Assembly (NCBI GenBank): GCA_021851865.1
Contig: JAJZBU010000001.1
Span: forward strand, 1 to 64,000
Source: Pseudomonadota bacterium
GTDB taxonomy: Bacteria; Pseudomonadota; Gammaproteobacteria; Pseudomonadales; Moraxellaceae
Length of the DNA: 64,000 nt
Direction: 5' to 3'
The first letter of the stretch is position 1. Each line of letters begins with the position of its first letter. Below the pieces are notes generated by a model that did no database searches, was not told where the DNA came from, and worked only from the letters and a program-made list of their open reading frames with translations. Below are positions 2,115-8,325 of this stretch, piece by piece. The translations under genes and the position numbers were made by a program.

Positions 2115-2498
2115 ATGAATGCCAGTCTGGCCATGAAGAGCTATCACCAAGTCCATGCCACCGGTATGGTCACCGACGCCAACCCGCATCGTTTGGTGCA
2201 AATGTTGATGCAAGGCGTGCTTGATGCGTTGAGCAAGGCGCGTGGGTCGATGGAGCATGACGACGTCGCCGGCCGGACGCGTCAGGTCAACCGCTCGGTC
2301 GAGATGATCTCCTATTTGCGCGAGTGCTTGAATCTCAAAGATGGCGGCGACATTGCTGCCAACCTCGATCGCCTCTATGCCTATATGCTGCGCCGCCTCT
2401 TCGACGCCAATGCGCATTGTGATCGCGTCGCTCTCGATGAAGTGGAGTCGCTGATGCTGACGGTCAAGGAGGGCTGGGATGGTATCGTCGATGCCTGA
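2115..2498 (+). CDS. fliS: Flagellar export chaperone FliS
   Basis: Cytoplasmic chaperone that binds the C-terminus of flagellin and prevents premature polymerisation before export. The 127-residue protein is of normal family length and all-helical. It has the conserved early segment MKSYHQVHATGMVTDANPHRLVQMLM, read here in pieces: a YxQV-like start and an 'ANPHRLVQML' helix. A GAGGAG ribosome site lies at 2101-2106. It is divergent from the flagellin gene and overlaps the next ORF by a few codons, so the pair is probably co-translated. Confidence 0.93.
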   Translation: MNASLAMKSYHQVHATGMVTDANPHRLVQMLMQGVLDALSKARGSMEHDDVAGRTRQVNRSVEMISYLRECLNLKDGGDIAANLDRLYAYMLRRLFDANAHCDRVALDEVESLMLTVKEGWDGIVDA

Positions 2499-2769
2499 GT
2501 CCCTGCAGCGTCAACTCGACGATCTGCGCGCTGCCAGTGCGTCCGGCGATGTCGAGCGTCTGCAGCAGCTCGACCAGCAGTTGCGCGACTGGTTCGCGGC
2601 ACAGGCGGTGACGGCGGATCTAGCGCTGTGGGCGCAAGCGGCGCAGCGCTGTTATGACGATTGTGTCGCCGATCTGCAGGCTTGGCGTGCCGACAAGCAG
2701 CAACAGGCCAGCGCCCGGCTCTCCTCCTTGCGGGCTTTTCTGCGCGACAGTCCCTGGCGTGACCGCTAG
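2491..2769 (+). CDS. fliT: FliT-like flagellar chaperone
   Basis: Small helical protein of about 92 residues that overlaps the end of fliS, the usual position of fliT. FliT family members chaperone the cap protein FliD and modulate flagellar transcription. The sequence is Gln/Leu/Ala-rich with heptad-like helices (for example LQQLDQQLRDWFAAQ) and has weak similarity to any motif, as is usual for this family. Two in-frame ATGs are possible (2479 and 2491); 2491 gives the smaller overlap. The assignment rests mostly on position, size and helical character. Confidence 0.6.
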   Translation: MPESLQRQLDDLRAASASGDVERLQQLDQQLRDWFAAQAVTADLALWAQAAQRCYDDCVADLQAWRADKQQQASARLSSLRAFLRDSPWRDR

Positions 2770-2892: not shown

Positions 2893-4371
2893 GTGTCGAA
2901 GATGGTGCATGACTCCAAGGTATTGCTGATCGAAGACGATGCGCAAAGACGGCATGATCTGTCGATCATCCTCGACTTCGTCGGTGAAGATGTCGTGGCG
3001 ACCGCGTCGCCGGGATGGCTGGAGGCGGTGCTGGCCGCTGGCCACCAGCGCGGTGACTTTTTCGTCGCCTATGTCGATGTGTCGCCACCTGAGAAAGCGG
3101 TTGGTCTCATCGAGGCTCTGGCTGCCTGGGACAAGGGTTTGCCCATGGTGCTGCTCGGCGAGGCCTTGCCTGAACCGAAGCGCAGTGATGAGCAATTCCG
3201 GCAACAGATCATCGGTCGTGTCGACTATCCCATCGGTCATGCCCCCCTCGTCGACAGCCTGCGCCGAGCGCAGGTCTATCGCGATCAGCAGCAGAGCGAT
3301 CCTTCGCGCATCTATCGTCGTGACGCCGAACTATTCCGTTCCCTGGTCGGCGCCAGCCGAGCCGTCTGTGAAGTGCGGCGCTTGATGGCCCAGGTCGCTG
3401 ATAAGGATGTCACCGTCCTGATCCTGGGCGAATCGGGAACCGGCAAGGAGGTCGTCGCGCGCAATCTCCACTATCAGTCGAGTCGTCGCGAAGGCCCTTT
3501 CGTTCCGATCAATTGTGGCGCCATCCCGCCCGAACTGCTTGAAAGCGAGCTTTTCGGTCATGAGAAAGGCGCTTTTACTGGCGCCATCAGCACCCGTCCA
3601 GGGCGTTTTGAGCTGGCGCAGGGGGGGACGCTCTTTCTCGACGAGATCGGCGATATGCCTTTGCACATGCAGGTCAAGCTGTTGCGCGTGTTGCAGGAGC
3701 GTACCTTTGAGCGGGTCGGAGGCAGCAAGACCTTCAAGGCCGACGTGCGTATCATCGCGGCGACACACCGGCAACTCGAGGATCTCATTCAGGAGGGGCG
3801 CTTTCGCGAGGATCTGTATTATCGCCTCAATGTCTTCCCGATCGAGATGCCGCCCCTGCGTGAGCGCACCGAGGACATCCCTCTCCTCATCAATGAGCTG
3901 GTGGAGCGTCTGGAGCGCGAGAAGCGTGGATCCTTGCAGTTCTCCTCCGGCGCGGTCATGTCGCTGACCCGGCACGAGTGGTTCGGCAATGTGCGGGAAC
4001 TGGCCAATCTCATCGAACGCTTGGTCATCACCCATCCCTACGGCCTCGTCAACGCCCAGGACTTGCCGAAACGCTATCGTCATCTCGGTGACGAGGAGGC
4101 GAGCGAAGTCGTCACCCCTGTCCAGGAAGAGGTGTCGCCACGGCCATCGATGCAACTGGCGCATGATCTGCCGGCGGCCAACCTGCCCGTGCATGGTCTC
4201 GATCTCAAGGATTATCTCGACAATCTCGAAAAAACCTTCATCACCCAGGCGTTGGATGACTGCAATGGCGTCGTCGCGCGCGCCGCCGAAAAACTGCGTA
4301 TCCGCCGCACCACCTTGGTGGAAAAAATGCGCAAATACCAGATTCAGCGTGCGGATGGGGGCAGTGCATGA
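2893..4371 (+). CDS. fleQ: Flagellar master regulator FleQ (sigma-54 activator)
   Basis: Sigma-54-dependent enhancer-binding protein at the top of the flagellar hierarchy; in Pseudomonas FleQ also binds c-di-GMP and switches exopolysaccharide genes. The N-terminal part (about 8-130) is the FleQ-type receiver-like domain, with [19 protein letters not shown] at its start. The AAA+ domain has Walker A GESGTGKE (179-186), the sigma-54 contact loop GAFTGA (226-231) and Walker [13 protein letters not shown] Fis-type helix-turn-helix (about 455-485, [18 protein letters not shown]) ends the protein. Length is 492 residues. The start codon is GTG. Its stop overlaps the start of the next gene by 4 nt. 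No fleSR two-component pair follows, unlike in Pseudomonas. Confidence 0.93.
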
Positions 4372-6404
4372 GGCCGCCACGGCGCATCAAGAGCACGGCG
4401 GCGCCGATGCTGGACGTGTCGGCGCAGGTCCTGGCGCTCTGTCAGCGCGGAGACGCTGCCCTGGCCGCGGGTGATCGCGCCCAGGCGCTGGATTGTTATC
4501 GTCGTTCTTATGCCATTCGACAGGATCAGGCGCAGGTGCGGCGTAACCTCGTGGTGCTTCTGCTCGAGGCGGGCGAGATCGGCGAGGCGCAGTCCCTGCT
4601 GCAGGATTTTAAAACACCGCCAGAACCGGCCTCGCAGGCCATCAATGCCTGGGGGGTGTATGAACTGAAATGGCGTCGTCCACTCGACGCTCTGCGCAGC
4701 TTTGAGCAGGCCCTGGCCATTGATCCGAAGAACGTCGACGCCTGGAACAATCGCAGCAACGCTCTGATCGCCCTGCAGCGGCATGAGGAAGCCCTCGCCG
4801 CCATCGATCATGCCCTGCAGGTGCAAAGTGAGGCCGCTGATCTGCATTACAACCGGGGGCTGATCCTGCAGGAGATGGGGCGCCTGGATGAGGCCCTGGC
4901 GGCCTATCTCACCTGCTGGCAACTCAAACCCGACTATGCCCTAGCTTATCTCAACACGGCCAATATTTACCTTTCCAGCCGTGACTGGCCGCGGGCCGAG
5001 TACTTTGCGCATAAGGCGCTTCAGTTCGCCCCGGACACAGACTATCTGCTCGGCACTTGGTTATTCTCGCGTATGTTTCAGGCGAAGTGGGAGTCGATGC
5101 TCGAGACCATCGAGAGCATTCTTCACAAGATCGATGACGGTAAAAAGTGCACCATCCTGCTGCCTTTGCTGGCGATGCCGGCGACACCGGCGCAACAGAC
5201 GCACGCGGCGCGCATCTATGTCGAGGATCGGCGGCTAGGGCATCGACCGACGACGTGGCTGCCACGGCGGCCGGGACGTGTGCGCATCGCCTACGTTTCC
5301 TCCGATTTCTGCCAGCACGCCGTTTCCCTGCTCAGCGCCAGCCTCTACGAGTTGCACGATCGTCAGCGCTTCGAGGTCTTTTTGTATTCGCTGCGCGACT
5401 GCCCGGAGGACAGCATGCAGCAGCGACTGCGCCGTGCTGCCGAACATTTCATCGACATCAGTGCCTGTCGCGACGAGCAGGTCTGGCAGATCGCACGTGA
5501 ACATGACATCGACATCGCCGTCGACCTCAATGGTCACACCGTCGGTGAGCGGACCTCGTTGTTTGCCGGTGGGTTGGCGCCGGTACAGGTCAACTATCTC
5601 GGTTATCCGGGCAGCATGGGTTCCAACTATCACGATTACATCATCGCCGATCGCTGGCTGATTCCGCCCGACCGCCGCCAGGATTACAGCGAGCAGGTGG
5701 TCTATCTGCCGACCACTTTTCAAATCAATGATGACGCCCGCCCTCTGCCTTTGCCCATGACCCGCGCCGAGCTCGGCGTGCCGGAGGAGGCGCTGCTGCT
5801 CTGTTCCTTCAACGGCACCTATAAAATGAACCCGGTGATGTTCTCGATCTGGATGGACATTCTCAAGGCCTGTCCGCAGGCCTTGCTCTGGCTGCTCGCC
5901 GACAGCATGGATGTCATGCAGCGCCTCTGCGCTTATGCCGAGGCGCAAGGGGTCGACCCGCATCGCCTGCGTTTTGCTTACTCCTTGCCCTATCAGGAGC
6001 ACTTGTCGCGTCTCGCCCTGGCCGACATCGCCCTCGACAGCCTGCCGTTCAACGGCGGGACGACGAGCAGCGACGCCCTGTGGTGCGGTCTGCCGCTGGT
6101 GACCTGCCTAGGCGACACCTTCGCCGGTCGCATGGCGGCCAGCCTGCTGCATGCTGCGCAACTGCCGATGCTGGTCACCGACAGTCTCAGTGCTTATCGT
6201 GACTGTGTCATCACGCTGGCGCATGAACCTAGCTACCGCGCCACCATACGTCAGCATCTGGCGCAGCCGCATCTGCGTGAGCAGCTTTTTGGCAGCCGGG
6301 CGCGTACTCGCGAGCTGGAAGCGGCTTATCTGGCCATGCATGAACGACGCTTGGCGGGTTTGCCGGCGGAGTCCTTCGCAGTACTCACCCAGGAAATCCC
6401 CTGA
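4368..6404 (+). CDS. TPR protein with GT41 (O-GlcNAc transferase-like) domain
   Basis: A 678-residue protein: about six tetratricopeptide repeats (roughly 15-225, for example NVDAWNNRSNALIALQRHEE) followed by a GT41/SPINDLY-type glycosyltransferase domain (about 300-670). Residues matching the UDP-sugar site of human OGT are present: His317 in SSDFCQHAVS (OGT His498), Lys486 in FNGTYKMNP (OGT Lys842) and the NGGTTSSDALW loop (562-572). The enzyme is probably soluble and transfers a sugar from a UDP donor to Ser/Thr. It is translationally coupled to fleQ by an ATGA overlap and lies 2.5 kb from a flagellin gene, so flagellin or a flagellar regulator is the likely acceptor; that is inference. 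Start ATG at the overlap is well supported. Confidence 0.88.
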   Translation: MRPPRRIKSTAAPMLDVSAQVLALCQRGDAALAAGDRAQALDCYRRSYAIRQDQAQVRRNLVVLLLEAGEIGEAQSLLQDFKTPPEPASQAINAWGVYELKWRRPLDALRSFEQALAIDPKNVDAWNNRSNALIALQRHEEALAAIDHALQVQSEAADLHYNRGLILQEMGRLDEALAAYLTCWQLKPDYALAYLNTANIYLSSRDWPRAEYFAHKALQFAPDTDYLLGTWLFSRMFQAKWESMLETIESILHKIDDGKKCTILLPLLAMPATPAQQTHAARIYVEDRRLGHRPTTWLPRRPGRVRIAYVSSDFCQHAVSLLSASLYELHDRQRFEVFLYSLRDCPEDSMQQRLRRAAEHFIDISACRDEQVWQIAREHDIDIAVDLNGHTVGERTSLFAGGLAPVQVNYLGYPGSMGSNYHDYIIADRWLIPPDRRQDYSEQVVYLPTTFQINDDARPLPLPMTRAELGVPEEALLLCSFNGTYKMNPVMFSIWMDILKACPQALLWLLADSMDVMQRLCAYAEAQGVDPHRLRFAYSLPYQEHLSRLALADIALDSLPFNGGTTSSDALWCGLPLVTCLGDTFAGRMAASLLHAAQLPMLVTDSLSAYRDCVITLAHEPSYRATIRQHLAQPHLREQLFGSRARTRELEAAYLAMHERRLAGLPAESFAVLTQEIP

Positions 6405-6425: not shown

Positions 6426-6700
6426 ATGAGCTATGAACGATGTCCTTCTTCTCCCCTCAGTCCGGCGCGCGCCGATCTCATTTTCAATTTCGATGGCAAG
6501 GCGAGTTGGAGCATACGCGATCCGGCGCGCTTTCATGCCTTGCTGGAAGAAGCCAAGAGCTTGATGAACTACTCCATCCAATCGCTTAGCGACTTGGTTG
6601 GAGTAGTTCATAAAAGATACAGGAGGACCCCTGGTTCGAGCGCCGCGGCTATCGTGTCTGGCCGCTGCCCATAGGTCAGGGCATGGTGATCAAGCGCTGA
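6426..6700 (+). pseudogene. Small ORF interrupted by a palindromic element
   Basis: The first 44 codons (from ATG at 6426, with residues such as RADLIFNFDGKASWSIRD) run into a 48-bp hairpin sequence. After it the sensible frame is shifted and continues as EDPWFERRGYRVWPLPIG to a TGA at 6698-6700. Deleting 59 bp (one copy of the flanking AAGA plus the element between) joins the two halves in frame into a 71-residue protein. As it stands, translation would end at 6674 with an unrelated tail. I do not recognise the family. It sits 21 nt after the GT41 gene and may once have belonged to the same transcript. Confidence 0.6.
6564..6611. repeat. 48-bp near-perfect palindrome (possible MITE/REP-like insertion)
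   Basis: ATGAACTACTCCA (6564-6576) is matched exactly by TGGAGTAGTTCAT (6599-6611). Inside, CCAA pairs with TTGG and TCGCT with AGCGA, leaving only a T/T mismatch, one bulged base and a one-base loop. The flanks carry the direct repeat AAGA at 6555-6558 and 6614-6617, which could be a target duplication. I saw no second copy in the window. Confidence 0.75.
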
Positions 6701-6759: not shown

Positions 6760-8325
6760 ATGTCGCCGCAGTATCCCCCCGCCGAGGATCAAGAGCATGC
6801 AGATGAACGGGCACTGAGTCGTCGCCTCGATGCCCTGCGCGAGTACGTCGCCTGCTTGCATCAGGAGGATACCCACACCCAGAGGGAAGTGCGCTGGCGA
6901 CTGTACAGCGTCTTGCAGCCCTTGCAGGAACTCGACGGCGTCGGTCATATCGAGCTCTTGCAGCGTCTGGAGCCCTGGGTCGGACGACGTGCTGGCGATC
7001 TGCAGCCGCCGGCGTTGAGTCTGCTGGCGCCCCTGCTCGACGAACTCGCCGATGTCGTGGCGCATCTCGACGATGGCGGGGAACTGTTGCGTCCGGCGGA
7101 GGAGCCCCTGATCTATCTGCAGGATGCCGACGTCAGTCATGGCCAGCATCTGGCACAGCAGCTCAAGAGCATGGGCTATCGCGTGCAAGTCTTTCTGCGC
7201 CTCGATGCCCTGCAGGCATCGACGCTGCGGCGCCCGCCGCAGGCCATCTTGCTGGGATCGTCCAGGAATGAACAGGCCGGGGCTTTGGCCTGGATCTCGG
7301 CGTTGCGCGCGACGGACACGGCGCCGCCTTGCATTCTGATCGGTCAGGACGAGAGTCTCGCCGAACAACTGGCTGCGGTACGGGCCGGAGTCGGGGGCTA
7401 TTTCAGTCGCCCGGTGCACCTTGCGGGTTTGTATCAGCGTCTGGAGCAGATCCTCGGCGCCGAGCAAGGGCAGCCACCGCGCGTTTTTCTGCTGTCGCCG
7501 CTGATAGATTCGCCCTTGCAGGGCATTTTGGTGGCGGCCGGACTGCAGGTGCAGAGCGTCAGCAATGGCGAGGAATTGCTCGCCGGCCTGTCGACTTTGC
7601 AACCAGAAGTGTTGTTGATCGACGTCGCCGATCCGGACAGTGCCGTGCAGTGGGCCGGTCTCGTGCGCCTGCATGACGCCTGGATGCAGATGCCCCTGCT
7701 TTTTCATGTCGATGAAGCGGTGTCTTCGCCGGCGCTTTGGCAGATAGCCGATCAGGTTTTGTTTGCGGGCCATGACGAAGATCGGCTCATCGCCAGTGTA
7801 CGAGCGCATGCGCGCCGCTCACGCCTGCTCACCCAGGCGCTGACGCGTGACGGTCTGACCGGATTGTTGACGCAGACCGAGATCAAGAACCGCCTCGGCA
7901 TGGAGATTGTGCGTAGCCTGCGCCATGGCAAGCCCTTGAGCGTCGCTCTGCTCGAGATCGACCATTTTGAGGACATCCATGCCACCTACGGTCACCTCAT
8001 CGGCGATATGGTCCTACGCACCCTGGCGCATCTTCTGCGCAACCGCGTCCGCCGTACCGATCTTTTGGGGCGTTATGGCAGTGAAACCTTCATCATTTTG
8101 CTCGGAGATTGCGCGCTGAGCAGCGCCGGCGGTCTCGTCGAGGATCTGCGGCAGAAGTTTTCAGCGCTCAGTCTGCATCCCTCCTTGCAGGATTTTTTCT
8201 GCACTTTCAGCGCTGGCGTCACTGTTCTCAACGGACATGAGTCTGTCGAAGCACTGCTCATGCGACTCGATGAGGCGCGCCTGAAGGCGCGGCGCAGTGG
8301 CCAGAATCGTCTCTGTATTCTCTAG
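6760..8325 (+). CDS. REC-REC-GGDEF protein with degenerate active site
   Basis: A 521-residue soluble protein. After a helical N-terminus there are two receiver-like folds (about 116-232 and 241-352) and a GGDEF domain (about 360-521). The first receiver has no phospho-acceptor Asp (AILLGSS at that position). The second keeps an Asp (LLIDVADPD, Asp288) but lacks the acidic pair at its start and the late lysine. The signature motif reads GSETF (440-444) instead of GGDEF or GGEEF, so the fourth-position Glu needed for metal-dependent catalysis is Thr. It is therefore probably not an active diguanylate cyclase and may bind GTP or act as a scaffold. GGAG lies 10 nt before the ATG. Its place behind fleQ suggests a link to motility control. 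Confidence 0.85.
   Translation: MSPQYPPAEDQEHADERALSRRLDALREYVACLHQEDTHTQREVRWRLYSVLQPLQELDGVGHIELLQRLEPWVGRRAGDLQPPALSLLAPLLDELADVVAHLDDGGELLRPAEEPLIYLQDADVSHGQHLAQQLKSMGYRVQVFLRLDALQASTLRRPPQAILLGSSRNEQAGALAWISALRATDTAPPCILIGQDESLAEQLAAVRAGVGGYFSRPVHLAGLYQRLEQILGAEQGQPPRVFLLSPLIDSPLQGILVAAGLQVQSVSNGEELLAGLSTLQPEVLLIDVADPDSAVQWAGLVRLHDAWMQMPLLFHVDEAVSSPALWQIADQVLFAGHDEDRLIASVRAHARRSRLLTQALTRDGLTGLLTQTEIKNRLGMEIVRSLRHGKPLSVALLEIDHFEDIHATYGHLIGDMVLRTLAHLLRNRVRRTDLLGRYGSETFIILLGDCALSSAGGLVEDLRQKFSALSLHPSLQDFFCTFSAGVTVLNGHESVEALLMRLDEARLKARRSGQNRLCIL

Follow-up and report, generated by a model that had tools for sequence, protein, structure and literature searches.

The region described here lies in the first part of the window (by the window we mean the whole stretch of DNA that was analysed, 64,000 nucleotides). 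An intact gene for a GT41 glycosyltransferase with TPR repeats is followed by a short disrupted coding region and then by an intact gene for a receiver-GGDEF protein (Table 1). fleQ and fliS are close by. Between these two lies a small ORF (2479-2769, plus strand) that has no Pfam match at E 0.01 and that, by its position, we presume could be FliT. A 48-bp palindrome, ATGAACT followed by 34 nt and AGTTCAT, sits inside the disrupted region at 6564-6611, and AAGA is found on either side of it (6555-6558 and 6614-6617). The first-pass annotation had taken this as a recent insertion of a mobile palindrome, with a 4-bp AAGA duplication, into a small gene of 71 codons. Its observations were sound: the near-perfect hairpin is real, both AAGA copies are where it put them, and removal of 59 bp does give 71 codons with a stop at 6698-6700. 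The comparison with related genomes leads to a different interpretation.

Table 1. Positions of the genes, gene remnants and element parts around the palindrome.
Feature	Position	Strand	Evidence
GT41 glycosyltransferase with TPR repeats, upstream, frame intact	4368..6404	+	PF13844, E 2e-77
5' methyltransferase remnant	6433..6563	+	88% DNA identity (130/148) to G002:C19 for the left flank through AAGAGCTTG; residues 7-46 of the 261-aa ortholog
Inverted right end (RE) tip ATGAACT	6564..6570	-	exact inverted copy of AGTTCAT 6605-6611; flush with the gene flank
RE hairpin core, 34 nt, forward orientation	6571..6604	+	minus strand of 6571-6611 equals element end positions 2-42, 100%
Forward RE tip AGTTCAT	6605..6611	+	followed by the gene flank AAAAGATACAGG
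3' methyltransferase remnant with the stop codon of the gene	6612..6700	+	91% DNA identity (79/87) to G002 from AAGATACAGG (6614 on); residues 232-261
Receiver-GGDEF protein, downstream, frame intact	6760..8325	+	PF00990, E 1.9e-30

The disrupted gene

When the joined 71-residue sequence was searched against 58 genomes, the match was split in both same-genus genomes, G002 and G001. More specifically, the two flanks of the palindrome correspond to the beginning and the end of one and the same open frame, which has 262 codons in G002 (contig C19) and 263 codons in G001 (contig C57). Since the flanks are the ends of one longer frame in the relatives, the ORF of 71 codons does not represent a gene. 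The first-pass annotation had expected relatives to carry this ORF uninterrupted; neither of the two same-genus genomes has it at this place, and the insertion reading therefore falls by its own test. The GT41-like, methyltransferase and GGDEF-like frames follow each other in the same order in G002, in G001 and in the window. In G002, 567 bp separate the stretches that match the window flanks, and about 565 bp are gone from the window gene. What is left are approximately 44 codons from its start and 28 from its end, joined through the palindrome. A search of the 58 genomes with the full ortholog gives just these two remnants in the own genome at E <=1e-10. The G002 gene has both AAGA copies too, within the stretches AAGAGCTTG and AAGATACAGG that it shares with the window, so they are not a target duplication. 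Note also that the window is one base short as compared to G002 near the start of the gene. The ATG at 6433 aligns with the start of the ortholog and is out of frame with the remainder through this one-base difference; the first codons read in the first-pass annotation are thus outside the frame of the ortholog.

The G002 protein matches the TylF family (PF05711) with E 2.7e-9 and 37.1 bits (cut-off 23). The lost gene would accordingly have encoded a TylF-like O-methyltransferase, a role that is taken from family membership. Full-length TylF-like relatives are present in G002, G001 and Gallionella sp. nzgw563, whereas the window has the two gene ends alone. In another relative from the family (G021, contig C8, L037) a longer open frame, of 452 codons, has the methyltransferase as its C-terminal portion, preceded by a long extension. 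The suggestion that a further gene behind the fleQ-GT41 pair had been lost holds in substance, as a methyltransferase of about 262 codons is mostly deleted here; the size of the gene and the mechanism of its loss were different from those proposed. That the methyltransferase worked together with its GT41 neighbour would be a guess, and our literature search on TylF methyltransferases, flagellin and glycosyltransferases found nothing on such a combination.

The palindrome and its donor element

The arms of the palindrome are complementary at 90% over 21 nt. Computed as single-stranded DNA, the 48-mer folds at -18.8 kcal/mol against a mean of -2.75 for shuffled sequences (z -10.35), and 0 of 200 shuffles did as well. 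No Rfam family reached its gathering threshold within the window, and a known RNA family was rejected as an explanation of the palindrome; Rfam on 10 loci of the element described below gave one tRNA and one match far under its cut-off.

One arm of the palindrome is repetitive. With up to three mismatches, it was found at nine other places in the own genome, at two places in G002, four in G005 and two in G030, and not in G001; altogether 4 of the 58 genomes contain it, the own genome included. Five of the nine other copies in the own genome lie within 500 bases of the end of a contig, a place where multi-copy DNA is often met. Seven of the nine run on through the hairpin, and those in C53 and C47 keep a tip of 23-24 nt alone. 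A 146-nt query made from the copies is 100% identical to the minus strand of the window over the 41 nt given in Table 1. The tip AGTTCAT is identical in 16 of the 17 copies listed, with one base changed in the remaining copy (G005:C60), and the tip that is seen inverted at the left of the palindrome recurs in other copies of the element.

What adjoins these copies helps to assign the element. A TnpB zinc ribbon (PF07282) is encoded inward of the repeated end and read outward in C4, C18 and C45, and in C18 the stop codon of tnpB is inside the end itself. There are two more PF07282 matches, in C46 and C33, which are not linked to this end. The first-pass annotation had advised a search for a RAYT or other transposase with matching ends; the donor right end adjoins tnpB. 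Y1 TnpA (PF01797) is found at four places in the genome, none of them in the contig of the window (C34); one copy is nearly whole (C40:417-761) and is divergent from a tnpB start (PF12323, E 1.4e-5). Left ends (LE) with a hairpin of the same stem, CTCCATCCAAT, occur downstream of the 3' end of tnpA. Both ends are predicted to fold, the 41-nt RE at -11 kcal/mol (z -6.04) and the LE at -11 kcal/mol (z -4.26). The copy in C7 (L025:4762-5888) has CCAC, the left hairpin and the right end, with the two ends 1.1 kb apart and a foreign interior that encodes a transposase fragment matching HTH_Tnp_1 (PF01527, E 3.1e-6). A complete element, i.e. one with both ends and intact genes, was not seen; copies other than that in C7 are partial or cut by contig ends. 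Pieced together from these fragments, the identity of the window end to a multi-copy end that carries tnpB, together with Y1 TnpA and the left ends, identifies the 41 nt by sequence as an IS605-type right end (IS200/IS605 family). IS110/IS1111, IS91 and integron attC had been considered before the TnpB zinc ribbon appeared in the translation. In ISDra2, according to the available part of the source, the guide RNA of TnpB derives from the right end (PMC8612924).

Several further observations concern the element copies. Other repeats adjoin the element ends, one starting with GTAGTGTACTGACTTATG in C4, C18 and C27 (L089, L028 and L027) and another starting with GTTGTGTATGTCAAGTTG in C35 and C49 (L030 and L191), which looks like the result of other insertion sequences entering the element. 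At four loci (L193, L194, L196 and L197; G000 C7, C45, C54 and C16) left hairpins are followed by sequence unlike the end of tnpA, and these may be solo left ends or ends-only remnants. G030 has eight left ends (L175, L178, L181, L184, L186, L188, L190 and L192) versus two right ends, each with up to three mismatches, and forms with the tnpA side only may outnumber there those with this tnpB end.

The complete palindrome behaves differently from its arm. The 48-mer was found once in the genome. We searched 299 family genomes, taken from a larger group, for the fused palindrome with 12-nt arms and no mismatch allowed; it was found at one locus in 1 of the 299, and under the same conditions there was no second fused RE pair. 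PATE/MITE and REP/REPIN elements are recognised by their multiple copies, and here a single doublet is found in 299 family genomes.

Target sequence and junctions

Of the 24 left ends found, CCAC immediately precedes 22, and the base after CCAC is C or T; the upstream flanks differ among all 24. These left ends come from four of the eight genomes searched, and the two exceptions are G030:C169 and G002:C54. Empty sites were sought for the left ends of four copies. That of C47 alone could be aligned to its end, and there the empty site in G002:C89 keeps CCAC. For the right ends, nine flanks of the own genome were searched, and in two, those of C27 and C47, the alignment reached the first base of the flank. 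The C27 site in G002:C67 has CCAC directly before the flank, and the more distant G005 and G020 have CCCA; the C47 site reads GCAC in G002 and GGGG in G001, so that there is no exact fit. Among eight copies of G002, G005 and G030, none gave a right-end empty site that could be aligned to the first flank base. As the first base of the right flank is C in seven of the nine own copies and A in C26 and C53, it is the latter two that decide whether the boundary is drawn at CCAC or at CCACC. Taken together, the flanks indicate that the element inserts 3' of CCAC without target duplication. This agrees with the IS200/IS605 family, where insertion takes place 3' of a tetra- or pentanucleotide and no target is duplicated, as described in the accessible parts of two reports (PMC8612924, PMC7290912).

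The two junctions in the methyltransferase gene can be read in the light of this rule. At the left junction the flank on the minus strand is CAAGCTC, and G002 reads TTCCAC immediately before CAAGCTC, with CCAC flush to the flank. The frequency of CCAC is 0.0041 per strand-base (three loci counted). At the right junction, the flank AAAAG starts right after the sole place within 16 codons that is compatible with CCAC, judged from the residues of G001, in whose protein 9 of 777 positions are compatible. With CCAC directly before AAAAG, the retained AA-AAG can be completed to CCA-CAA-AAG, which codes for P-Q-K. P-Q-K is present at this place in G001, G021 and Gallionella, with other codons, and in the nearest relative, G002, the sequence is ACC CAG AAG (T-Q-K), where CCAC is not codon-compatible. 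The ancestral allele of this strain at the right junction has been lost. Since part of the left arm of the palindrome has the sequence of the forward RE core (ATCCAATCGC), the joint falls at ACTCCA or earlier. Before the palindrome as a whole, CCAC is found on neither strand (flanks CAAGAGCTTG and CCTGTATCTTTT), and insertion as a unit is thus unsupported.

Origin of the palindrome

Our results make it almost certain that the locus is a TylF-like methyltransferase pseudogene whose deletion joint carries IS605-type right-end sequence. How the joint arose is less certain. The course that we prefer, with a probability of roughly 70%, consists of two insertions of the element in opposite directions, with the right ends pointing outward, and a subsequent deletion between the two RE hairpins. 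One copy would have entered on the minus strand, 3' of CCAC in the codons for V-E, with its RE pointing left. A second copy, on the plus strand, would have landed near the end of the gene, 3' of CCAC in the codons for P-Q, with its RE to the right. A deletion between the RE hairpins would then have taken out the bodies of the two elements along with about 565 bp of the gene. What remains at the joint would be ATGAACT from the left element and, from the right element, its complete 41-nt RE, which together make the near-perfect 48-bp palindrome. Because the RE hairpin is itself nearly palindromic, copies in opposite orientation also share short direct repeats (ACTCCA...). Directly seen parts of this course are the gene loss, the 41-nt RE identity, the CCAC rule and, in a relative, the CCAC next to the left flank. 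Against it, two insertions in one gene are less simple than one, the right site in G002 is incompatible with CCAC and the ancestral right site is not visible, and the assembly consists of 54 contigs. We found no copy of the methyltransferase gene that still holds one or both insertions, as an intermediate would. We also met no fused LE pair and no short LE-RE fusion among the 24 left ends, which could be followed for up to about 1.5 kb downstream, many of them ending at a contig end.

The simplicity of a single event speaks for an alternative in which the element inserted only once, at the right site. A later deletion would have taken away the element body and the middle of the gene, and the seven left bases would have been made during repair by snap-back copying of the RE tip, i.e. 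by a quasi-palindrome template switch. The fold of the RE hairpin could favour fold-back synthesis, and the seven bases are indeed an exact inverted copy. Still, we consider this course unlikely, as it explains neither why the copy stops exactly at the tip of the element nor why CCAC stands before the left gene flank in G002, given how rare this tetranucleotide is.

It is also conceivable that element copies flank a longer stretch in the genome and that the assembler joined them via the palindrome. The fragmented assembly and the five copies near contig ends would fit such an artefact. With bases of the forward core in the left arm, however, a false join would have to rest on about 6-13 nt. 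Moreover, the contig is 184,684 bases long and the gene order on both sides is the same as in relatives, which makes an artefact quite improbable.

Insertion of a ready-made mobile palindrome of about 48 bp (PATE, MITE or REPIN-like) with an independent gene deletion has a precedent in ends-only IS605 derivatives of 52 bp, known from the part of PMC3119063 that was available. We regard it as very improbable here. The palindrome is confined to one of the 299 family genomes under the search conditions given above, the CCAC that insertion as a unit needs is absent before it on both strands, it holds no left-end sequence, and in the intact gene about 565 bp separate its flanks. A PATE of the LE/RE type is ruled out by the absence of left-end sequence from the window. 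Of the idea that a mobile palindrome inserted here, what stands is the derivation from mobile DNA, as 41 nt are an IS605-type RE; insertion as a unit does not. The model of a recent insertion with AAGA duplication into a 71-codon gene has next to no probability left, since the frame restored by removal of 59 bp is a one-in-three chance, AAGA does not abut the palindrome, both its copies lie in the G002 gene, the relatives carry a frame of 262-263 codons, and there is a second frame lesion near the start.

Thus, the hairpin is most likely a genomic scar without demonstrable function and not a fresh mini-element in a small gene. For most readers this is an ordinary pseudogene with an instructive joint, and a palindrome that resembles a fresh mini-transposon can be a deletion scar. 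The logic of target sequences (CCAC before each flank), applied to the genome and its relatives, helps to separate a scar from an insertion. Here, IS605-type ends have probably caused the loss of host DNA between copies, at the cost to the strain of a methyltransferase gene beside a GT41 glycosyltransferase, near fleQ and fliS. As a long shot, deletion between outward right ends may be a one-step route to an inverted IS200-family doublet, a nascent REPIN that the TnpA of the genome could move. If this is true, the locus offers a view of how REPIN-like elements arise.

Comparison with known systems

Fused RE pairs were not met in our literature search, which included the available parts of PMC3119063, PMC7290912, PMC8612924 and PMC3116915; we do not claim that they are unpublished. 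A REPIN is an inverted REP doublet that forms a hairpin and is linked to RAYTs, as the portion of PMC3116915 at hand describes it. The window resembles it in having two inverted end palindromes, related to the IS200 family, in one larger hairpin, and differs from REPINs as described there in having one copy, a contig without Y1 transposase and no sign of movement.

The element can further be compared to IS605-type elements with Y1 TnpA and TnpB. The donor shares with them the subterminal LE and RE hairpins, the insertion 3' of a fixed tetranucleotide, tnpB reaching the RE, the 3' end of tnpA beside the LE and, in one contig, divergent starts of the two genes. The window differs in that it keeps only the outermost 41 + 7 nt, with no gene and no left end. 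Shortened forms of such elements have been described. In Haloquadratum, PATEs and IS605-type elements have lost the core between end palindromes that act as repeats, with 52 bp left (PMC3119063), and in Halanaerobium an ends-only IS605 copy of about 271 nt is reported (PMC7290912), both according to the accessible text. The window shares with these a short remnant that is built of end palindromes. As far as the same text goes, theirs join the LE and RE of one element, whereas the window joins two REs, with host DNA lost and no CCAC on the left. With these differences, the scar in the window belongs with the ends-only IS605 remnants already known, as a variant of them.
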